From: an uncultured delta proteobacterium
GTDB taxonomy: Bacteria; Desulfobacterota; Desulfovibrionia; Desulfovibrionales; Desulfovibrionaceae
Direction: 5' to 3'
Length of the DNA: 64,000 nucleotides
Assembly: GCA_900079685.1 (NCBI GenBank)
Contig: LT599018.1
Span: 1,055,272 to 1,119,271 of the forward strand
The notes under the pieces are model-generated. The model was not told the origin of the DNA, searched no databases, and was given only the letters and a program-made list of their open reading frames with translations. The position numbers and the translations under genes were made by a program. Of the stretch, positions 29,671 to 43,118 are shown piece after piece (position 1 is the first letter of the stretch; every line of letters starts with the position of its first letter).

Positions 29671-30654
29671 TTAAAAGTGGAAAAACACACCAAGCCCGAG
29701 GTTGGCGCCGTCATAGGCGTCCTTTACCTTCAACGCGCCGCCCTGCACCCAGAACCCCCAGTCCTCGGTCACCCAGTGCCGGTGCCGGAGCAGCGCGGAG
29801 ACCGAGTCCCGCCGCACCGCCTCGGGCGAATCCAGATAGGTGGCCATGTAAGCCTGGTTGCCCCAGGACACGACCAGCGTGTTCATGTAGCGGCGCCAGT
29901 ACCCCTGGTCGATGCTCACCGAGTGCGACGTGGATTCCAGCGAGCCGGGATCGCTCACGTTGTAGAAGAACCGGTACCCGAGCACCCAGCCCGGCAGGTA
30001 ATAGTTGAGCCCGGTGGAGTAGATGGTGTCCGAGCTGCCCGTGTGGTAGTCGATATACGAAAACCCGGCGACCCAAACCAGATCCTTCTTTTCTCCCAGC
30101 TTGAAGTTGAAGTCCTGGTCCACCCGCAGGCGCGGCAGAAAATCCACATCCCCGGCCGTGGACAGGCTGGTGAAGGTATAGAACCGCTCCGCCCAGTCCT
30201 TGTACAGCCCGCCGACAACCTGCGCGGCCGCGCCGTCGCCCTTCTTGCGGTTGTAGCCGTTCATCTCGACGTACCAGGAATTGCCCTCGCCGCCGCGCGT
30301 CAGGCGCATGCCGCCGGAATCCCAGTTGCCGTAGGATTTGCTGATAAATTCGCGGTTCGTGTACATCTCCACCAGGTACCGCTTTTTCTCTTTGACCGGT
30401 TCGGCAACCGTGGCGGGCGCCACAGCGGAGCCGGGCTCCGCCGGGGGACCGGGAGGACCGGGGGGGCCTGGAGGCCCTGGAGGGCCGGGAGGGCCGGGGG
30501 GGCCAGGTAACCCGGCAGGCGCGCTCTCTTGGCGCATGGCAAGGCTGGCCTGCCCTTCGCCGCGCAAACTTTCCGCCCGCGCCGGTAAGGCCGCCGCCAG
30601 CAGCCATACGAAAAGCGCGCAGACGGCGCCACATTCTTTCCAATGGCGCTTCAT
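29671..30654 (-). CDS. YaiO-type outer-membrane barrel with collagen-like (GPP)7 stretch
   Basis: 327 residues: signal peptide (about 1-27, ending ARA), a Gly/Pro linker with seven uninterrupted Gly-Pro-Pro triplets (residues 51-71), then a beta-barrel of the YaiO family (about 95-327) with alternating aromatic strands and a C-terminal Phe (GVFFHF), as expected for outer-membrane insertion. YaiO genes in Escherichia coli sit beside a GT2 gene, matching this locus. The collagen-like segment is not a usual part of the family and might trimerise or act as a stiff periplasmic tether. The start overlaps the upstream stop (ATGA). Confidence 0.83.
   Translation of the reverse strand: MKRHWKECGAVCALFVWLLAAALPARAESLRGEGQASLAMRQESAPAGLPGPPGPPGPPGPPGPPGPPGPPAEPGSAVAPATVAEPVKEKKRYLVEMYTNREFISKSYGNWDSGGMRLTRGGEGNSWYVEMNGYNRKKGDGAAAQVVGGLYKDWAERFYTFTSLSTAGDVDFLPRLRVDQDFNFKLGEKKDLVWVAGFSYIDYHTGSSDTIYSTGLNYYLPGWVLGYRFFYNVSDPGSLESTSHSVSIDQGYWRRYMNTLVVSWGNQAYMATYLDSPEAVRRDSVSALLRHRHWVTEDWGFWVQGGALKVKDAYDGANLGLGVFFHF
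30442..30504 (-). repeat. Collagen-like GPP triplet repeat inside the YaiO-type gene
   Basis: Seven tandem 9-base units encode Gly-Pro-Pro (residues 51-71). Units differ at wobble positions, so the repeat is maintained at protein level rather than being a fresh slippage product. Such tracts are prone to length change. Confidence 0.9.
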
Positions 30655-33336: not shown

Positions 33337-34509
33337 ATGAAATTTACAGGACTGACCATCGGCATCCCCAAGGAAATCATGCCGGGCGAGCGCCGGGTAG
33401 CCGCCATCCCCGACACCGTCAAGAAGATGAAGGATCAGGGCGCGCGGGTGCTGGTGGAGAAAGGCGCGGGCGAGGGGGCGTTTTTCATGGACGACGCGTA
33501 CCAGGCGGCCGGGGCGGAAATCATCCCGGAAGCGGCGAAAATTTACGCCGAAGCCCATGTCATCCTGAAGGTCAAGGAACCGCTCTTCAACGATGCCGTA
33601 AACAAGCACGAAGCCGAAATGTTCCGCGACGGGCAGTACTTCATCACCTTCCTGCACCCGGCGGCGCCCGTCAACTACGACATGATACAAACGCTCGCCG
33701 CCACCGGCGTCGTCAGCCTCACCCTTGACGGCATCCCCCGCATTTCCCGCGCGCAGAACATGGACGCCCTCACGTCCATGAGTTCCGTTGCCGGGTACAA
33801 ATCCGTTCTTATGGCGGCCAACCGCCTGGCCAAATTCCTGCCCATGATGGGCACCGCCGTGGGCGTGATAAAACCCGCCAACGTCGTGGTTATCGGCACC
33901 GGGGTCGCCGGGTTGCAGGCCGTCGCCACCGCCAAACGCCTGGGCGCCAACGTAACGGCCGTGGATATCCGCCCCGCCGCCATTGAGCAGGCCCAGTCCC
34001 TCGGCGCGAAAGTCCAGGAAACCGGCGTACCGGCGGAACTCGCCGTGGGAGAAGGCGGCTACGCCCAGCGCCTGCCCGAGGAATGGCTCCAGAAAGAACG
34101 GGAAGGGCTTAAAGATCTTGTTAAAAACGCGGACATCCTCATCCTGGCCGCGCTTATTCCCGGCAAGCTCGCCCCCATCCTGGTTACCGAGGAAATGGTC
34201 CGGTCCATGGCGCCGGGTTCGAGCATCGTGGATATTTCCATCGACCAGGGCGGCAACTGCGAACTGACCGCGCCCGGCGACGTGACGACGAAGTACGGCG
34301 TCTCCATTGACGGCACCAAGAACATCCCCGGCATGCTGCCGACCAGTTCCACCTGGATGTTCGCCAACAACATCTACAACCTGCTGGCGTTCCTGTGCGA
34401 GGACGGCAAGGTGGTGCTGAACAGGGAAGATCCCATCGTGTCCTCTTCCCTCACGACCATCGGGAAAAAGATCGTCCATGCGGGCGCCATCGAGGCCATG
34501 GGTCTGTAA
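33337..34509 (+). CDS. pntAA: NAD(P) transhydrogenase alpha-1 subunit (domain I)
   Basis: 390 residues forming the soluble NAD(H)-binding domain I of proton-translocating transhydrogenase. Key features are IGIPKEIMPGERRVAAIPDTV at the N-terminus, the RxxDVLTSMSSVAGYKSV-like segment (RAQNMDALTSMSSVAGY) and the Rossmann loop VVVIGTGVAGLQAVATAKRLGA. The alpha subunit is split, as in Rhodospirillum rubrum, with the membrane part encoded next. The ATG at 33337 lies after AAAGGAG. A stem-loop and a pair of palindromic repeats separate it from pntAB. Confidence 0.93.
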   Translation: MKFTGLTIGIPKEIMPGERRVAAIPDTVKKMKDQGARVLVEKGAGEGAFFMDDAYQAAGAEIIPEAAKIYAEAHVILKVKEPLFNDAVNKHEAEMFRDGQYFITFLHPAAPVNYDMIQTLAATGVVSLTLDGIPRISRAQNMDALTSMSSVAGYKSVLMAANRLAKFLPMMGTAVGVIKPANVVVIGTGVAGLQAVATAKRLGANVTAVDIRPAAIEQAQSLGAKVQETGVPAELAVGEGGYAQRLPEEWLQKEREGLKDLVKNADILILAALIPGKLAPILVTEEMVRSMAPGSSIVDISIDQGGNCELTAPGDVTTKYGVSIDGTKNIPGMLPTSSTWMFANNIYNLLAFLCEDGKVVLNREDPIVSSSLTTIGKKIVHAGAIEAMGL

Positions 34510-34575: not shown

Positions 34576-34689
34576 AAAGGCACTGGATTCCCGCCTTCGC
34601 GGGAATGACAAGTATTCTTTTGGAACTCGCGGCATAGACCTTTGCGTTCCCGGTCGTCATCCCCGCGCAGGCGGGGATCCAGTGCCTTT
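34576..34689. repeat. Facing pair of short palindromic (REP/BIME-like) repeats
   Basis: A 34-base unit at 34576-34609 is repeated in inverted orientation at 34656-34689 with a few changes. Each unit has an internal GC-rich hairpin (for example TTCCCGCCTTCGCGGGAA). The layout matches the widespread dispersed extragenic palindromic repeats that travel as inverted pairs. It lies inside the pnt operon, where it could modulate readthrough or mRNA decay between pntAA and pntAB. Confidence 0.82.
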
Positions 34690-34743: not shown

Positions 34744-35025
34744 ATGAGTCCCATTTTACTGATTCTCGTTTTCGTGGCCGCGACCTTGCTCGGGTACAAG
34801 ATCATCAGCCAGGTGCCCAGCCTGCTGCATACGCCGCTGATGTCCGGCATGAACGCGCTGGCGGGCGTCATCATCTTGGGGGCGCTCACCGCCACCCATT
34901 TCGCCCACACTGCCGTCGGCGCATTTTTGGGCGGTGTCGGCATCGCGTTAGCCGCTACCAACGTGTTCGGCGGCTTTGACGTGACCCACAAAATGTTGAA
35001 GATGGTTGCGGGCAAAAAACGCTGA
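34744..35025 (+). CDS. pntAB: NAD(P) transhydrogenase alpha-2 subunit (membrane)
   Basis: 93 residues with about three membrane helices (LLILVFVAATLLGYKII first). It supplies the alpha part of membrane domain II of transhydrogenase, including the conserved SGMNALAGVIILGAL segment. The ATG at 34744 follows GGAGG; a longer frame from 34642 runs through the palindromic repeats and is rejected. pntB begins 53 bases downstream. Confidence 0.9.
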   Translation: MSPILLILVFVAATLLGYKIISQVPSLLHTPLMSGMNALAGVIILGALTATHFAHTAVGAFLGGVGIALAATNVFGGFDVTHKMLKMVAGKKR

Positions 35026-35078: not shown

Positions 35079-37604
35079 ATGAGCACGTTAGCGTACAACA
35101 TGACCGCCGCTGCCCTGTCCGTCTCCATCCTTTACGGGCTCAGCCTTATGAGCAAGGTCCGGACCTCCGTGCGCGGCAATCTTATTTCCGCTTTCGCCAT
35201 GGCCGCGGCCATCCTCGTGACCATGTACAAGGACGGGGCCTTCGGTTCTCCGGCTCTCTGGGTGGCCATCGCGGCGGGCGTCGCCTTCGGCCTGTTTCTG
35301 GCCAACAAGGTCAGGATGCTGCAAATGCCGCAGCTCGTGGCTTTTCTGCACGGCATAGGCGGCGGGGCCGCGGCCATAGTCGGCGTGCTGGTCCTGGTGG
35401 ACACCGGGGCGGAAACCGCCTTCGCCCGCGCCAGCGCGGGCCTTGCGCTCGTCACCGGCATGATAACCATCGCGGGGTCCTTCGTGGCGGCCGGGAAACT
35501 GCACCAGATACTGCCGCAAAAGCCCGTGCGCCTGAACGGCCATTCCGCGCTGATAAACCTGCTCGTGGCTCTTGCGGTGCTTTCCGTGCTTATCTGCACG
35601 TTCGCGCCGGACTTTCTGTTCCTGCCCAACGTGGCCCTGATGTTCGCCTCCGGCGCGGCGTTCGGCATCGTTTTCACCATCCGCGTGGGGGGGGCGGACA
35701 TGCCCATCACCATTTCGCTCCTCAACTCCTTCGGGGGCGTTTCCGCCGCCATCGCCGGGCTGGCCATCGCCGACCCGCTGCTGGTTGCCATCGGCGGCAT
35801 CATCGGCTCCTCCGGCTTTCTGCTCACGCGCGTCATGTGCCGGGCCATGAACCGCAAGCTCATTTCCATCCTCCTGGGCGAATCGTCCTTGCAGGGCAAA
35901 AAAATCGCGGCGGATGCGGCGAAGCAGCCCACGGAAGCAAGGAAGCAACCCGAGGCCGCCGCGCGGGCGGTATCCCCTGGTGACGGCGCGCCTGATGCCG
36001 CCGCCGTTCTCGCTTCCGCTAAAAACGTCATCATCGTACCCGGCTACGGCATGGCGCTGGCCCAGGCCCAGCACAAGGTCAAGCAACTGGCCGAGGCATT
36101 GGAAGCGAACGGCGCGAGGGTCGTGTACGCCGTCCACCCGGTCGCGGGCCGGATGCCCGGCCACATGAACGTGCTCCTGGCCGAGGCGGACGTGGACTAC
36201 GAGCAATTGCTGGAAATGGATACCGCCAACCCCATGTTCGCGGACACGGACCTGGCGGTCATCATCGGGGCCAACGACGTGGTCAACCCGGCGGCCAACA
36301 CCGCCGAGGGCACGCCCATCTACGGCATGCCCGTCCTGAACGTGGCCGAGGCGAAGAACGTCATCATCTGCAACTACGACACCAAGCCCGGTTACGCGGG
36401 CGTGGATAACCCGCTCTACGCGAAAGCCGGGGTCATCATGATGACCGGCGACGCCGCCGTTACCGTCGGGTCTTTGGTTGCAATGGCACAAAAAGGGACC
36501 GCCGGTTCCGGACAAGACGACACCGGCTCTGGAAAAGACGCCGTCGGCTCCGGGTCGCTCGGGACCACACTCCGGAGCGCGAAGAACGTCGTCATCGTGC
36601 CCGGTTACGGCATGGCGCTGGCCCAGGCCCAGCACAAGGTCAAGCAACTGGCCGACGCATTGGAAGCGAACGGCGCGAAGGTCGTGTACGCCGTCCACCC
36701 GGTCGCGGGCCGGATGCCCGGCCACATGAACGTGCTCCTGGCCGAAGCGGACGTGGATTATGAGAAACTGCTGGAAATGGAGACGGTCAACCCCATGTTC
36801 GCGGATGCGGACCTGGCGGTCGTCGTCGGGGCCAACGACGTGGTCAACCCGGCGGCCAACACCGCCGTGGATACCCCCATCTACGGTATGCCCGTCCTGA
36901 ACGTGGCGGCGGCGAAGAACGTCATCATCTGCAACTACGACACCAAACCCGGCTACGCGGGCGTGGAAAACCCCCTGTACACCCAGGCGGGTGTGACCAT
37001 GCTGCTCGGCGACGCCGCGGACTCCGTCGCGAGCCTGGTGGCCGCCCTGGCCGGAGCGGGCGATACGGGAGAAAGCGCGCACGCGGCCGAAAACCCGGAC
37101 GCGGCTGTTGCCTCGGTCCTGCATGCCGCCAAAAAAGTGGTCATCGTGCCCGGCTACGGCATGGCGCTGGCCCAGGCCCAGCACAAGGTCAAACAACTGG
37201 CCGATGCCCTGGAAGCGAACGGCGCGGAAGTGGTGTACGCCGTCCACCCGGTCGCGGGCCGGATGCCCGGCCACATGAACGTGCTCCTGGCCGAAGCGGA
37301 TGTGGATTACGAAAAATTACTGGAAATGGAGACAGTCAACCCCATGTTCGCGAACGCGGACCTGGCAGTCGTCGTCGGGGCCAACGACGTGGTCAACCCG
37401 GCGGCCAACACCGCCGTGGACACGCCCATCTACGGCATGCCCGTCCTGAACGTGGCCGAGGCGAAGAACGTCATCATCTGCAACTACGACACCAAACCCG
37501 GTTACGCGGGCGTTGAAAACCCCCTGTACACCCAGGCAGGGGTGACCATGCTGCTCGGTGACGCCTCAGAATCCGTTGAGCGCCTTATCCGGAACGCGGG
37601 ATAG
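35079..37604 (+). CDS. pntB: NAD(P) transhydrogenase beta subunit with three tandem domain III copies
   Basis: 841 residues against the usual 460 or so. Residues 1-about 270 are the normal membrane domain II. A charged linker follows, then three complete nucleotide-binding domains III at about 314-470, 501-658 and 684-841. Each contains the Rossmann loop VPGYGMALAQAQHKV, HPVAGRMPGHMNVLLAEA, GANDVVNPAANTA and a GYAGVxNPLY loop. Gly/Ser-rich and Ala/Glu-rich linkers join them. In each copy the Lys-Arg-Ser of the Escherichia coli NADP 2'-phosphate loop is replaced by Asn-Tyr-Asp. The frame is uninterrupted across all copies. A terminator follows. How one membrane domain serves three domains III is unknown. 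Confidence 0.95.
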   Translation: MSTLAYNMTAAALSVSILYGLSLMSKVRTSVRGNLISAFAMAAAILVTMYKDGAFGSPALWVAIAAGVAFGLFLANKVRMLQMPQLVAFLHGIGGGAAAIVGVLVLVDTGAETAFARASAGLALVTGMITIAGSFVAAGKLHQILPQKPVRLNGHSALINLLVALAVLSVLICTFAPDFLFLPNVALMFASGAAFGIVFTIRVGGADMPITISLLNSFGGVSAAIAGLAIADPLLVAIGGIIGSSGFLLTRVMCRAMNRKLISILLGESSLQGKKIAADAAKQPTEARKQPEAAARAVSPGDGAPDAAAVLASAKNVIIVPGYGMALAQAQHKVKQLAEALEANGARVVYAVHPVAGRMPGHMNVLLAEADVDYEQLLEMDTANPMFADTDLAVIIGANDVVNPAANTAEGTPIYGMPVLNVAEAKNVIICNYDTKPGYAGVDNPLYAKAGVIMMTGDAAVTVGSLVAMAQKGTAGSGQDDTGSGKDAVGSGSLGTTLRSAKNVVIVPGYGMALAQAQHKVKQLADALEANGAKVVYAVHPVAGRMPGHMNVLLAEADVDYEKLLEMETVNPMFADADLAVVVGANDVVNPAANTAVDTPIYGMPVLNVAAAKNVIICNYDTKPGYAGVENPLYTQAGVTMLLGDAADSVASLVAALAGAGDTGESAHAAENPDAAVASVLHAAKKVVIVPGYGMALAQAQHKVKQLADALEANGAEVVYAVHPVAGRMPGHMNVLLAEADVDYEKLLEMETVNPMFANADLAVVVGANDVVNPAANTAVDTPIYGMPVLNVAEAKNVIICNYDTKPGYAGVENPLYTQAGVTMLLGDASESVERLIRNAG
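36006..36489 (+). repeat. Domain III copy 1 (diverged N-terminal copy)
   Basis: First of three tandem repeats inside pntB, covering about residues 310-470. It keeps all nucleotide-loop motifs. It differs most from the other two, for example LEMDTANPMFADTD against LEMETVNPMFAxAD, but long stretches of DNA are still nearly identical with copies 2 and 3. Confidence 0.9.
36579..37052 (+). repeat. Domain III copy 2
   Basis: Second tandem repeat inside pntB (about residues 501-658). Its DNA is nearly identical to copy 3 over most of its length, with changes mainly at wobble positions, pointing to recent duplication or gene conversion. Confidence 0.9.
37128..37601 (+). repeat. Domain III copy 3
   Basis: Third tandem repeat inside pntB (about residues 684-841), ending the protein. 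It has the natural C-terminus of PntB (SESVERLIRNAG), so it is likely the ancestral end, with copies 1 and 2 inserted before it or derived from it. Confidence 0.88.
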
Positions 37605-37691: not shown

Positions 37692-38624
37692 TCATCCCAA
37701 AATGGGGTTCTCATATATGGTGCTGTCGGGCGGCAGTTCCTCGCGCAAGAGACGCATCAGAATTTCGTTGAAAATCTCCAGCGCTGCCACGGTTTCTTCC
37801 GTCGGAAATTTGTGCGTCAGCGCGTAGCACACCCGTTCCGGAGGCGCGGGGGCGATGCGGAATATCTCCAGATTGCCGCGCGAAAGGCAAGCCTTTGCCA
37901 GGGAATACGGAAAGATCGTCCACTGCCCGGGCTTTTGCAAGAGGTCCCGGATGACGTTGAGGCTGTCCACCCGGACCCCGCCCGGCGCCGCAGGGTCCCA
38001 GTGCTGGCTGTGCCATACCCGCAGACTGTTGCTCCACTCCATGTGCAATTCCTGCCGCGGATCAAGGTCGGCGGCGCGGACTATCCCTTCCCCGCCGCGC
38101 GCGGCCGGGGCCGCTATCGGGCGCAGCCCGACCAGGGGTTCCCGGTAGCAAGGCCGCACGGTGACGTTGGGGTTGTACTGATCGAGCAGGGAAAACCCCA
38201 CATGGATCACGCGCTTGTCCACCAGCGAATACATCTCGTCGGAATGCCGCTGCATGATCTTCAATCTCAGAAGCGGGCGGTGCTGCAAAAGTTCCGCGTA
38301 CAACCGCGAGAAGAACGCGATGTTCTGGCTTTCCAGCGACCCCACGGCCAAGGGCAGGTGCTCGCTGACCGCCTGCAACGCCTGGACGTCTTCCTGGATT
38401 TCCAGCCAACGGTTGGCGATCGTCACAAAGGCCGCCCCCGCGCGGGTCAGGGTGACCGTGCGTACGCCCTTGCGGCGCTCCACAAGCTTCGCCCCCACCT
38501 CCTCTTCCAGTCGCAGCAGGCGCTTGCTGACGCTGGACGGGGTCAGGTGCAGATCGTCCGCCGCCTGCCCCAAGGTTTTGGTCGCGACGATCCGCAGAAA
38601 CGTCCGCACGTCTTCAAGCCGCAT
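37692..38624 (-). CDS. LysR-family regulator of the tct operon
   Basis: 310 residues. The N-terminal winged helix-turn-helix (about 1-60, with LGQAADDLHLTPSSVSKRLLRLE) is followed by an effector-binding domain that is less conserved. It is transcribed away from tctC with a 211-base shared region that holds a LysR-box-like palindrome, so it probably controls the transporter and itself. The effector may be the transported carboxylate. The gene is convergent with pntB. Confidence 0.9.
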   Translation of the reverse strand: MRLEDVRTFLRIVATKTLGQAADDLHLTPSSVSKRLLRLEEEVGAKLVERRKGVRTVTLTRAGAAFVTIANRWLEIQEDVQALQAVSEHLPLAVGSLESQNIAFFSRLYAELLQHRPLLRLKIMQRHSDEMYSLVDKRVIHVGFSLLDQYNPNVTVRPCYREPLVGLRPIAAPAARGGEGIVRAADLDPRQELHMEWSNSLRVWHSQHWDPAAPGGVRVDSLNVIRDLLQKPGQWTIFPYSLAKACLSRGNLEIFRIAPAPPERVCYALTHKFPTEETVAALEIFNEILMRLLREELPPDSTIYENPILG

Positions 38625-38665
38625 GCCTCACCTGCCCTTACAAAATGGTCCTATCAGGAACATTA

Positions 38666-38687
38666 TATGCGATAAATATTCGCTATA
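38666..38687. promoter_or_regulatory. LysR-type operator candidate
   Basis: TATGCGATAAATATTCGCTA contains the inverted repeat GCGA-N7-TCGC in an AT-rich context, of the T-N11-A class. It lies 42 bases upstream of the LysR start and 150 bases upstream of tctC. Confidence 0.55.
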
Positions 38688-38835
38688 CTTTTTCCATCGC
38701 TTCTTCCATACAATACGTCAAGGAAACGTTTTCGATGCCGCACGCACGGCGTTTCAACCGGAAAAACCCACTCTTTCTTTATAAAACACACCATTCCGAG
38801 AGAAAAACAACCTTTTCGCGAACAGGAGGCATCAC

Positions 38836-39801
38836 ATGGGTCGGATCGCAAAAAAAATGGGCATCCTTGCGGCATGCATGGCGTTTTCCGCCGTTCTTTT
38901 CAGCCCTGCCATCGCCGGGGCGGCGGAGTATCCCAAAAAGAACATCACCCTCATCGTGCCCTATTCCGCGGGCGGCAGCAGCGATATCGGTGCGCGCCGT
39001 CACGCGCAGTTCCTGGAAAAGGAACTCGGCGTTTCCGTCATCATTGACAACACCGCCGGGGCCGGCGGCTGGGTGGGCTGGAACAAGCTGATGAAGGCCA
39101 AGCCCGACGGCTATACCATCGCACAGTTGAACCTCGTGTACGTTGACGGGTATCTTAACCCGGAAATGAAGCGAACCCAGAACCTGGACAGCATCACTCC
39201 GCTTGCGCGGCACGTGCTGGATACAACCGCCTGGGCCGTCAAGCCGGATTCACCCTACAAGGACGCCAAGGAACTGCTCGAATACGTCAAGGCCAACCCC
39301 GGCAAAGTGAAGGTAGCGACCTCCGGCGTGATGACCCAGCACCACATTCTGCTGATCCAGTTGGAAAAGCTGGGCTACAAGATGGAACCCGTGCACACCA
39401 ACGGCCTGGCCGACGTCATGACCATGGTGCTCGGCGGCCATGTGGACGTAGCCTCCCTCGGCGCGGGCGATGTCCGCAAGCAGGCCAGGGACGGCGAATT
39501 GCGCGCCCTGGCGGTTATGTCTCCCGAGCGCTCCCGCTTCCTGCCCGATACCCCGACGATGAAGGAAAACACCGGCCTCGCCCTGGAAGCGTATGCCGCG
39601 CGCGGCTATGCCGGCCCGGCGGGCATGGACCCGGCCGTCGTAAAAATTCTTTCCGACGCGCTGGGGAAAGCCATGAACAACCCCGAGCACATCAAGGAAA
39701 TGGAAAACCTCGGCATGGACGTGGCGTACCTTAACAGCGACGACTGGAAGGCGTTTCTGAAAAAGATCGAAAAGGAACACAAAGAAATTCTCGGCTGGTA
39801 G
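38836..39801 (+). CDS. tctC: Tripartite tricarboxylate transporter binding protein TctC
   Basis: 321 residues with a signal peptide (about 1-29) and the Bug/TctC binding fold. Family motifs are ITLIVPYSAGGSSDIGAR near the N-terminus and VIIDNTAGAGGWVGW, which bind the ligand carboxylate through main-chain and water contacts. AGGAGG precedes the ATG. It captures a carboxylate for TctAB. The amidohydrolase gene two places downstream suggests an N-acylated or lactam-type acid rather than citrate. Confidence 0.92.
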   Translation: MGRIAKKMGILAACMAFSAVLFSPAIAGAAEYPKKNITLIVPYSAGGSSDIGARRHAQFLEKELGVSVIIDNTAGAGGWVGWNKLMKAKPDGYTIAQLNLVYVDGYLNPEMKRTQNLDSITPLARHVLDTTAWAVKPDSPYKDAKELLEYVKANPGKVKVATSGVMTQHHILLIQLEKLGYKMEPVHTNGLADVMTMVLGGHVDVASLGAGDVRKQARDGELRALAVMSPERSRFLPDTPTMKENTGLALEAYAARGYAGPAGMDPAVVKILSDALGKAMNNPEHIKEMENLGMDVAYLNSDDWKAFLKKIEKEHKEILGW

Positions 39802-39808
39802 CCCTATG

Positions 39809-39835
39809 GGCCGGGCGGCCAACGGCCGCCCGGCC
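39809..39835 (+). terminator. Intergenic hairpin between tctC and tctB
   Basis: GGCCGGGCGGCC pairs with GGCCGCCCGGCC across a 3-base loop, with no T tract. It follows the binding-protein stop by 7 bases, as in the Liv operon, and likely keeps tctC mRNA more abundant. Confidence 0.65.
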
Positions 39836-39871
39836 TGAAATGCCGTAACGCCGATAACAGAGGATGCACCC

Positions 39872-40366
39872 ATGACACCGAACACCACATTTTTCCAGCG
39901 GTTCCCGCTCGACTTCTGGGTCTGCACCGTCATCTTTCTGGCTGCCGCCTTTCTCTTCGCGGATTCGCGGGGGTATCCCGACAAGGCGATTCTGTTCCCC
40001 TCCATCATGCTGGTCTGCATGATGGGCCTGAGCGCGTACTGCATGGCCGCCTCCTGCATCAAACGGCAGAAACTCCTGCGCGCCGTTGCAGCCGGGACCC
40101 GGACGCTCCCGGCAAAAACGCCCATCGACCGCAAAGCCGTCTGCGCCTTTGCCTGCATGGCCGCCGCGTACGCGTTCCTCACGCCGTATATCGGTTTCGG
40201 GCTTGCCAGCCTTATTTTCATCGGGGCCGGGACCGTCTTTTTCGGCGAAAAGGATAAACGCGCCGTCGTGGCCGTCCCGCTGGGCACAATGCTCTTCGTC
40301 TACGGTTTCTTCATCTATTTCCTTGACGTGAGCATTCCCTTCTTCCCGGCGTCCTTCGGCTCGTAA
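39872..40366 (+). CDS. tctB: Tripartite tricarboxylate transporter small membrane subunit TctB
   Basis: 164 residues with four predicted membrane helices and the weakly conserved TctB pattern (DFWVCTVIFLAAAFLFADSRGYP at the start, ending in DVSIPFFPASFG). It is needed with TctA for secondary, ion-driven uptake. It sits between tctC and tctA on one strand. Ribosome site GAGGA precedes the ATG. Confidence 0.88.
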   Translation: MTPNTTFFQRFPLDFWVCTVIFLAAAFLFADSRGYPDKAILFPSIMLVCMMGLSAYCMAASCIKRQKLLRAVAAGTRTLPAKTPIDRKAVCAFACMAAAYAFLTPYIGFGLASLIFIGAGTVFFGEKDKRAVVAVPLGTMLFVYGFFIYFLDVSIPFFPASFGS

Positions 40367-40443
40367 CCCTCTTATTCCGAGACAGAAAGCCCGCGCTGGC
40401 ACGCGCCATTGGAATTCCCGACAGCGAAATCCGGAGGAGTATC

Positions 40444-41973
40444 ATGTCCCCATTTGAAATTGCTTCAGATGTTTTTACCGTCACCAATATCGCGATAATG
40501 TCCGGCGGTCTCATATTCGGCATGGTCGCGGGCGCGCTGCCGGGCATCAGTTCCACCATGGCCGTGACCCTGCTGTTGCCGTTCACCTTCGCCCTGCCCG
40601 CCGGGTCGGGCCTGATGCTGCTGATGGCCATCTATACCGCGTCTGTTTATGGCGGCAGCATTTCCGCCATTCTCATCAACACGCCGGGCACGGGCTCTTC
40701 CGCCGCCACGGCCATTGACGGATACCAGCTCACCCGCAAGGGGCACGGCGCGCGGGCGCTGCGTATTTCGACTTTCGCCTCCGCGCTGGGCGGGGTGGTC
40801 AGCGCCATCGCCCTGATTCTCCTCTCGCCCCCGCTCTCGAAAATCTCGCTCTGGTTCGGCCCGCCGGAATATTTCCTCCTGGCCTGCCTCGGGCTCTCGG
40901 CCGTGGCCACCCTGGCGGCGAACTCCATCGCCAAAGGCATTCTCGCTGCCGTCATCGGCCTCTTTCTCGCCTCGGTCGGGCTGGACTACTCGCTCGGCAG
41001 CCCGCGCTTCACCTTCGGCATCATGGAGCTTGAGGGCGGCATATCCTTCATCCCGGCCCTGATCGGGCTGTTCGCCCTTTCCGAGGTCCTGCGGATGGCG
41101 GAAAACCGCTTCGCGCCGGACTCCAAACCCGCCGATTTCCGCAACGACAGGTTCTTCCCCTCCCTGGCCGAACTGGCGCCAACCTGGGCCACCATGGGGC
41201 GCGGCTCCGTCATCGGCACCATTATCGGCATCCTGCCCGGAGCCGGGGCCGAAATCGGGTCCTGGATCAGCTACAACACGGAAAAGCGCCTGTCCAAACA
41301 CCGCCATGAAATCGGCCACGGCTCCACCGTGGGCGTCGCCGCATCCGAAGTAGCCAACAACGCGGTTACGGGCGCGGCGCTCATTCCGCTCTTCACGCTG
41401 GGCATTCCCGGCAGTTCCGTGGCGGCGGTCATCCTGGGCGGCCTTCTCATCCATGGGCTGGTGCCGGGGCGCGAACTGTTCACCGAATACGCGACCATAA
41501 CCTACACGGCCATGTTCGGCTTCCTCATCGCCAATATCCTGATGCTCTTTTTCGGGCTCCTGCTGGTGAAGCCCTTTGCCCAGGTCACGAAGATTCCCCG
41601 GCGGTACCTCGCGCCGATCATTGTAACGCTCTGCTTTATCGGGGCCTATGCCATCAACAACAGCTTCTTCGACGTGGGCATCATGGTGGTCTTCGGGGTC
41701 ATCGGGTACGTGCTGCAAAGAGCCGGATTTCATCCCGCGCCCATCGTCCTTGCCATGATTCTCGGCCCCATGGCGGAATCGCGCTATCTCCAGATGTACA
41801 GCCTGAGCGACGGCAACGTTATCAGTTACATGTTCACCCGCCCCATTTCGCTGGCGCTGATCGGAATGATCGTACTGTTCCTCTTCTCCCCGGCCTTTTT
41901 CAAGAACGTGCAGCAAGGCCCCGCGCCCGAAACCGCACCCGGCTCCGTAAAAGACACGCAGGAGGCCGCCTGA
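40444..41973 (+). CDS. tctA: Tripartite tricarboxylate transporter large membrane subunit TctA
   Basis: 509 residues with about eleven or twelve membrane helices. It has the family hallmarks GALPGISSTMAVTLLLPFTF near the N-terminus, GTGSSAATAIDGYQL and the mirrored GILPGAGAEIGSWISY and GIPGSSVAAVILGGL in the second half. It is the ion-coupled channel of the carrier. The stop overlaps the amidohydrolase start by one base (TGATG), so the two are coupled in translation. Confidence 0.93.
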   Translation: MSPFEIASDVFTVTNIAIMSGGLIFGMVAGALPGISSTMAVTLLLPFTFALPAGSGLMLLMAIYTASVYGGSISAILINTPGTGSSAATAIDGYQLTRKGHGARALRISTFASALGGVVSAIALILLSPPLSKISLWFGPPEYFLLACLGLSAVATLAANSIAKGILAAVIGLFLASVGLDYSLGSPRFTFGIMELEGGISFIPALIGLFALSEVLRMAENRFAPDSKPADFRNDRFFPSLAELAPTWATMGRGSVIGTIIGILPGAGAEIGSWISYNTEKRLSKHRHEIGHGSTVGVAASEVANNAVTGAALIPLFTLGIPGSSVAAVILGGLLIHGLVPGRELFTEYATITYTAMFGFLIANILMLFFGLLLVKPFAQVTKIPRRYLAPIIVTLCFIGAYAINNSFFDVGIMVVFGVIGYVLQRAGFHPAPIVLAMILGPMAESRYLQMYSLSDGNVISYMFTRPISLALIGMIVLFLFSPAFFKNVQQGPAPETAPGSVKDTQEAA

Positions 41974-43118
41974 TGATTACGGATACGGTCACCCGCATCA
42001 GGGGCGGTCATGTCGTGGACCCGGCAACGGGTGAATCCGCAATACGGGATCTGTGGATCGTCAACGGCCGCGTGGCGGCAACGCAGCCCGCAGGCGGCGG
42101 CGACCACACGGACATCGACGCCGCCGGCTGCTACGTGTTCCCCGGTCTTGCCGATTTCCACCTGCACATGTTCCAGGGCGGGACGGAAATCGGCCTGCAG
42201 CCGGATTCAGTACTGCTGCCCCAGGGCGTCACCATGGCCGTGGACCAGGGCAGCGCGGGCGTTGCCAACTGCGACGCGTTTTATGCGGGAACCCTGGCAA
42301 AAACCACGGTCAGGGCTTACGCCTTCCTGCACCTCTGCCCGGCGGGCCTTGCCACCACGCGGTATTTGGAAAACATCGATCCCGCCAATTTCGACCCCGT
42401 CGCCGTGCGGGACGTGTTCGACCGCTATCCGGGCGTTTTTCGCGGCCTGAAAATCCGGCAGAGCGTCGAAATAGCCGGAAATCACGGCCTCAAACCGCTG
42501 GAGCGAACGCTGCGCATCGCGGACGACCTGGACCTGCCCGTGGTGGTGCACACCACGGACCCGGCGGGCGACATTGAAGACCTCGCCTCCATGCTGCGGC
42601 CGGGGGACGTCTTCAGCCACGTCTTTCACGGGCGCGGCCAAACCGTTCTGGACGATGCCGGAAACATCCGCCCGGCCGTCCGCGAAGCCCGGAAACGCGG
42701 GGTGTTCTTCGATACTGCTGACGGCCGCGTCCATTACGGGCTGAAGCAAATCCGCCTTGCGCTCGGCCGGGGCTTTTTACCGGACACCATCAGCACGGAC
42801 CTGACGCGCATCAGCATGTTCACCGCGCCGGTGTTCGGTCTGCCGTTCATCATGTCCAAATACCTGGCGCTGGGCATGCGGCTGGAAGACGTAGTGCGGG
42901 CCGTGACGCAGACCCCCGCGCGCATCCTCGGGCTGGACGCGGCGAAATTCGGCACCCTGCAACCGGGAGCGTATGGCGACGTCGCGCTGTTTACCCTGGC
43001 GGAAAGCGCCGCCACCATCACGGACAAGACCGGTGACACCCTTGCGCTGCCCCGGATTCTTGTGCCGCAAATGACGCTCCGGAACGGAAAAGTCGTGTAT
43101 CGGAACATCACCTTCTGA
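41973..43118 (+). CDS. Amidohydrolase/deacetylase-family metallohydrolase
   Basis: 381 residues of the amidohydrolase superfamily: N-terminal beta-strand region, TIM barrel and C-terminal strand. Metal ligands are visible: HLHMF near residue 63, a likely carbamylated Lys in FRGLKIRQS, His in VVVHTTDP and FSHVFHG, and Asp in ISTDLTR. The closest relatives by pattern are the EF_0837/AHA_3915-type deacetylases and dihydroorotase-like enzymes. It begins within the tctA stop, so it probably acts on the imported compound, for example removing an acyl group. The substrate is unproven. Confidence 0.85.
   Translation: MITDTVTRIRGGHVVDPATGESAIRDLWIVNGRVAATQPAGGGDHTDIDAAGCYVFPGLADFHLHMFQGGTEIGLQPDSVLLPQGVTMAVDQGSAGVANCDAFYAGTLAKTTVRAYAFLHLCPAGLATTRYLENIDPANFDPVAVRDVFDRYPGVFRGLKIRQSVEIAGNHGLKPLERTLRIADDLDLPVVVHTTDPAGDIEDLASMLRPGDVFSHVFHGRGQTVLDDAGNIRPAVREARKRGVFFDTADGRVHYGLKQIRLALGRGFLPDTISTDLTRISMFTAPVFGLPFIMSKYLALGMRLEDVVRAVTQTPARILGLDAAKFGTLQPGAYGDVALFTLAESAATITDKTGDTLALPRILVPQMTLRNGKVVYRNITF

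Follow-up and report, generated by a model that had tools for sequence, protein, structure and literature searches.

Three domain III copies on a single PntB chain: a variant plan of proton-translocating transhydrogenase

Transhydrogenases are membrane proton pumps in which hydrogen is passed between cofactors by way of one mobile cofactor-binding domain. In domain III (dIII) the KRS motif holds the 2'-phosphate, and NAD(H) binding by domain I (dI) is marked by an Asp and a RAQ-x-x-D stretch. An open question about these enzymes is how hydride transfer and proton translocation are divided between the two dIII of a dimer. According to passages of a review (PMC5742237), the dIII of the ordinary dimer alternate between dI and domain II (dII), one being up while the other is down, and a second face-up dIII would clash; ovine PDB entries with the titles 'double face-down' and 'single face-down' exist. 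The KRS motif corresponds to residues 424-426 of E. coli PntB and is named as an NADPH-site motif in a passage of PMC9529548. In the window, that is, the whole stretch of 64,000 nucleotides of DNA analysed here, all three domains of the proton-translocating enzymes (E. coli PntAB, R. rubrum, Thermus thermophilus and mammalian NNT) were recognisable. The three-gene plan is shared with Thermus, as described in part of PMC5742237, and the dIII fold and the GYGMA, HPVAGRMPGHMN and GAND motifs are shared with the known transhydrogenases. Those enzymes have one dIII per protomer and a KRS (in Thermus KRG) motif, whereas the window enzyme has three dIII with NYD in each. Single-dIII PntB proteins of Bacteroidales and Clostridia, such as that of Prevotella koreensis (L050), have the N-x-D motif, the operon plan and the clade in common with the window protein but carry one dIII against its three.

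The pntB gene is one open frame on the forward strand (35079-37604, stop included), supported by translation and Pfam and coding for 841 aa. On the same strand, a pntAa-like gene (33337-34509) encodes a dI of the NAD(H)-binding type, recognised by Pfam AlaDh_PNT_N and AlaDh_PNT_C, and a pntAb-like gene (34744-35025) encodes the first dII membrane helices, or dIIa (Pfam PNTB_4TM, 90.4 bits, cut-off 26.2). The pntAa-like product scored 351.6 with the NCBIfam subunit alpha model, under the cut-off of 383, because the gene holds dI alone. PntB itself belongs to the Pfam family PF02233 (1002.3 bits, cut-off 31.7), and the genes that supply its dI and dIIa partners adjoin it, as in the PntB family. 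Its score of 704 with NCBIfam NF006974 is only just above the cut-off of 689 and is a total over three stretches, helped by the dIII repeats. It departs from the family in having three dIII per protomer instead of one, which we treat as a variant plan and not as grounds for exclusion from the homologous PntB family. The dII part (35079-35881, forward strand) comprises nine membrane helices according to the AlphaFold2 model; in an alignment with E. coli PntB, its His91, Asp207, Asn216 and Arg259 correspond to E. coli His91, Asp213, Asn222 and Arg265, residues tied to proton transfer. The gene is the sole match in its own genome and sits on a 3.0-Mb contig. We consider it near certain that a genuine transhydrogenase operon with the plan pntAa-pntAb-pntB is present here and that its mobile dIII has been multiplied within one chain.

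All parts that follow dII lie on the forward strand. A linker (35882-36005) leads from dII to dIII copy 1 (residues 310-471, 36006-36491), which is joined by linker 1 (25 aa, 36492-36566) to copy 2 (residues 497-657, 36567-37049) and then by linker 2 (22 aa, 37050-37115) to copy 3 (residues 680-839, 37116-37595). All three copies were found complete with a profile built from dIII sequences, and each, taken alone, scored 257-263 bits against positions 298-455 of Pfam PNTB (cut-off 31.7). The linkers between the copies were located by linker measurement and by the model. Between copies, protein identity is 81.9-91.2% and DNA identity over the domain 85.6-89.0%, dN is 0.055-0.108 and dS 0.34-0.36, and because of this divergence they are neither fresh nor identical repeats. 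The AlphaFold2 model (mean pLDDT 79.4, pTM 0.47, 24 sequences) shows, besides the nine membrane helices, three Rossmann domains that fold separately; how the domains lie relative to one another in it carries no meaning. Its low-confidence stretches are residues 270-304, 474-490 and 660-671; the long stretches with pLDDT below 50 are the three linkers, besides two 4-residue stretches within domains, and the low pTM fits mobile domains. The best structural matches to the model were transhydrogenases, including the NADP-bound dIII of R. rubrum. The dIII profile, Pfam and the model thus uphold the claim of an earlier note on this DNA that one 841-residue frame carries three dIII on flexible linkers, an architecture about which we have practically no doubt. 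The further claim that the dIII cannot all dock at once agrees with the published geometry as given in part of PMC5742237. Of the functional roles suggested in that note (a nucleotide reservoir, rapid alternation or different affinities), the last is made less likely by how closely the copies resemble one another and by the motifs they have in common.

The same note had credited every dIII with all nucleotide-loop motifs, which does not hold, since KRS is replaced by NYD in all three copies (36372-36380, 36933-36941 and 37482-37490, forward strand; translation and motif comparison, for copy 3 also alignment). Copy 3 aligned without gaps to the R. rubrum dIII, with NYD opposite KRS, and with a single gap before the motif to the Thermus dIII, with NYD opposite KRG. 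The pocket motifs GYGMA, HPVAGR and GAND are present in all three copies. The KRS or KRG of NADP(H)-specific dIII was found in none of them, and because of this replacement we do not file the window dIII as NADP(H)-specific. Of the 129 domains compared at first, 96 had N-[YF]-D and 26 had KR[SG], the other 7 being truncated or illegible; the variants NLD, NMD, NRD and NWD came to light when the sample was widened. No basic residue beside the motif is invariant in the N-x-D group in place of KRS. Basic residues occur at the position of K436 in 62% of the N-x-D group vs 0% of the KR group, and at that of K335, in the helix after the GYGMA loop, in 98% vs 46%. We think that the pocket of the N-x-D dIII probably continues to hold a nicotinamide dinucleotide, with the selectivity for the 2'-phosphate relaxed or achieved otherwise. 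A swap of cofactors between dI and dIII was considered and is unsupported, as dI keeps the NAD-type Asp, and also the RAQ-x-x-D stretch (window with 6 of 52 N-type and 4 of 20 KR-type rows). Identity to the window dI is 57-77% for the dI of N-x-D operons, against 38-45% for that of KR operons.

The search for homologues with repeated dIII, which the earlier note had proposed, returned relatives with two, three or four dIII in three phyla, with members among Desulfovibrionaceae, Bacillota and Bacteroidales; three of these relatives come from genomes assembled as a single contig. Among the named organisms with more than one dIII are Desulfovibrio sp. ZJ369, Desulfovibrio sp. MES5, several Clostridiaceae MAGs and Dysgonomonas sp. 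PF1-14. These relatives rule out uniqueness of the window architecture, and multiplied dIII looks like a recurring design. The earlier statement that no such PntB was described stands for the literature searched, although the plan is frequent in genome data. Neither a PntB with several dIII nor an N-x-D class appeared in the titles, abstract openings and passages covered of the open-access literature. A search for 'copies of domain III' gave only a review of the two dIII per dimer, and neither subject is mentioned in the passages covered of a review of NADPH systems (PMC4518329) and of a paper on a human NNT model (PMC5026163).

Genome matches were counted with the window protein as query at E <= 0.001, single-dIII enzymes included. 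On this basis, matches occurred in 13 of 199 genomes and 7 of 44 genera of the family sample, in 19/79 genomes of genus g52 and in 3/25 of the genus of the Dysgonomonas genome. At the level of order, 85 of 188 genomes matched in that of a Clostridiaceae MAG and 91 of 344 in that of Dysgonomonas. The phylum of Leucothrix pacifica gave 351 of 398, the window's own phylum 23 of 297 and the phylum of the Clostridiaceae MAG 49 of 388; 2 of 59 mixed relatives matched, one being the window's own genome. Among the matches listed, 8 of the 8 long Pseudomonadota frames of at least 588 aa (L216-L223) have one dIII. A 1095-aa frame in another genome (L224 in G1333) has one KRS dIII at its end and is, by its length, a fused single-chain transhydrogenase.

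In 168 distinct whole frames, N-x-D proteins with one, two, three and four dIII numbered 43, 16, 23 and 14, and KR-type proteins with one and two dIII numbered 71 and 1; these counts are not population frequencies, because loci were picked for their resemblance to the window protein. At least two dIII were thus present in 53 of 96 N-x-D frames vs 1 of 72 KR frames, and all but one of the 54 whole multi-dIII frames in the count fall in the N-x-D clade. The count leaves out 35 contig-edge frames, 31 duplicates, 4 frames without dII in frame and 2 with a partial dIII only, and four frames of 561-606 aa from the window's phylum (G1367, G1393, G1417 and G1261) lie outside the domain counting. L030, whose third dIII is cut by runs of N, was scored with two, and L207 was included among the proteins with four. 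Some rows scored with a single dIII, L010 and L043 for example, may be multi-dIII genes that were broken. Since 43 whole N-x-D frames have a single dIII, this clade works without multiplication. Conversely, multiplication does not require N-x-D, because a KRS-type PntB from another family of the window's phylum (L196), with its own dI and dIIa, has two dIII, both with KRS; a need for N-x-D was ruled out on this ground. One genome (G330) holds a three-dIII N-x-D enzyme and a single-dIII KRG enzyme (L142 and L235), a hint of separate roles. A single-contig genome (G226) has four dIII in its PntB. Two others (G227 and G268) carry the pnt operon twice, with identities between the operon copies of 99.8% over 4104 bases and 99.3% over 4231; in each genome the PntB of one operon carries four dIII, and that of the other operon ends after the third.

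The reading that we favour, to which we give about an even chance of being right, is that the dIII copies are interchangeable tethered carriers whose docking at dI and at dII can overlap. Each dIII of an ordinary dimer serves in turn at dI, for hydride transfer, and at dII, for nucleotide exchange and the proton step. If a protomer has three, one dIII could be at dI and another of the same chain at dII while the rest wait loaded, so that the half-reactions at dI and dII would overlap and turnover would be higher. The extra dIII would then be tethered carriers comparable to tandem acyl carrier proteins (ACPs). In the ACPs of polyunsaturated fatty acid synthases, as in the lipoyl domains of 2-oxoacid dehydrogenases, a mobile carrier visiting separate sites is repeated on flexible linkers; productivity rises with ACP number (PMC5067506, in part), and lipoyl domains vary in number (PMC8421416, in part). 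The likeness is one of working only, as dIII is not homologous to these domains, holds its dinucleotide without a covalent arm and has its docking tied to a proton channel. The carrier reading is favoured by the three full domains with separate Rossmann folds and flexible linkers, by the range from one to four dIII inside one clade together with the separate KRS-type two-dIII case, by the keeping of both a four-dIII and a three-dIII operon in G227 and in G268, and by the conserved motifs and purifying selection described below. Against it stand the 43 N-x-D frames with a single dIII and a dII-dIII linker that is long in single-dIII members too, and the frequent changes of copy number would suit drift as well. 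These natural versions with one to four dIII in one clade, two of them in one genome, are ready tests of whether dIII movement is rate-limiting and whether the copies work in turn.

The dIII copies tested are under purifying selection: dN was lower than dS in every computable pair from 39 multi-dIII proteins, two pairs being saturated and none computed for L025. Degeneration of the extra copies was rejected as a candidate. All five motifs are kept in 149 of 164 complete dIII copies from 58 multi-dIII frames, and only 15 copies miss a strict pattern, 12 of which differ in GAND alone. GAND-only deviations were seen in every copy of L205, L209, L211 and L213 and in copy 1 of L206; copy 4 of L206 lacks HPxAGRxPGHMN, and in L232 each of the two copies deviates from two patterns. 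This last protein, a PntB from G1659, has N-R-D and changed HPVAGR and GAND motifs in each of its two dIII and may represent an intermediate or another type.

In a tree of the membrane domain, built from 137 rows by a quick method and with weak support at 37 of its 134 inner branches, the N-x-D proteins are set apart by a branch with support 97; the same split had support 100 in an earlier tree of 98 rows, and the motif marks one clade. One single-dIII N-W-D PntB (L197 in G1362) stands on a very long branch of the membrane-domain tree. In the dIII tree, the three copies of the window protein cluster with support 91, and those of L032, L136, L162, L163 and L166 also cluster within their protein. 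Close relatives cluster by position (e.g. copy 4 of L006, L007, L102 and L103), and in Clostridia the pattern is mixed, with the copies of L026, L029, L030, L031 and L139 interleaved and with copy 4 of L144 and both L148 copies standing apart. The L145 copies form a long branch among Desulfovibrionaceae copies, unlike the L145 membrane domain. From these groupings, the copies have therefore been multiplied repeatedly, or homogenised, or both.

Such a history also fits the main rival to the carrier mechanism, namely that copy number drifts through recombination between tandem repeats without any benefit, in a form of constructive neutral evolution in which the copies would stay intact because a damaged dIII would block the docking sites. 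Drift is served by the frequent changes of copy number, with at least 12 changes between single and multiple dIII on the 137-row tree (11 with the N-x-D rows alone), by the clustering of copies of one protein, which fits duplication or gene conversion, and by the near-identical operon pair in one genome that differs by exactly one dIII. However, multiplicity recurs in separate clades, even outside N-x-D, while 71 of 72 KR-type frames stay at one dIII, and the dS above 1 between copies in several Bacillota shows that several copies have long been retained. We regard drift as possible but less probable than overlapping carriers.

The linker from dII to dIII was measured from the MNR end of dII to the start of the dIII profile, a longer measure than that of the review (PMC5742237), a passage of which gives 14-19 aa in all enzymes. 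It spans 38-83 aa (median 47) in 38 multi-dIII frames, 31-84 aa (median 56) in 43 single-dIII N-x-D frames and 34-57 aa (median 36) in 49 KR frames. Because single-dIII N-x-D members share it, the long tether is a trait of the clade and no adaptation to multiplicity. The linkers between dIII measure 14-44 aa and are rich in Ala and Pro in many Desulfovibrio proteins. By eye, the dII-dIII linker of a Bacteroidales single-dIII N-x-D PntB (L038) is long, heptad-like and of coiled-coil appearance.

The N-x-D motif allows a bolder and rather doubtful proposal, in which the clade would be a distinct pump whose dIII hold NAD(H) or another dinucleotide instead of NADP(H), the two to four dIII forming a tethered array of hydride carriers that would connect dI with the proton channel and might also reach another partner. 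In any case the clade raises the question of the nucleotide for many anaerobes, which matters where NADPH supply is assumed from annotation alone. It is improbable that the extra dIII merely act as a tethered store or buffer of tightly bound nucleotide without a turn in the cycle. Isolated dIII of other species do bind NADP(H) with a sub-nM apparent Kd, whereas binding by the intact enzyme is far weaker, according to a passage of PMC5742237, but the copies keep their whole conserved surface and motifs, beyond the pocket alone, and two or three bound molecules per chain would be little compared with the cellular pool. Docking of the extra dIII on another partner protein, to which nucleotide or hydride would be handed over, is less probable still: dI, dIIa and dIII of the N-x-D type all differ from the KR type, so that a different use is possible, but no partner gene was identified in an unsystematic view of the neighbouring genes. 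An assembly artefact or frame error hiding a true gene with one dIII is barely conceivable, since the copies and linkers have diverged and recur in many independent genomes, three of them single contigs, although assemblies do break or garble at such repeats elsewhere (L008, L010, L025, L030 and L043).

Around the window pntB, some further features were seen. Between the dI and dIIa genes, inside the operon, lies an inverted REP-like repeat (34586-34679) made of GATTCCCGCCTTCGCGGGAATGAC and a mirrored partner; this sequence has two matches within the window, where none is expected by chance. The region adjoining pntB (37692-43118) contains a LysR-like regulator, followed by tripartite tricarboxylate transporter-like and amidohydrolase-like frames, as named by eye. 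A frame on the reverse strand (29671-30654), as read from its translation, contains a collagen-like Gly-Pro-Pro run behind an apparent signal peptide.
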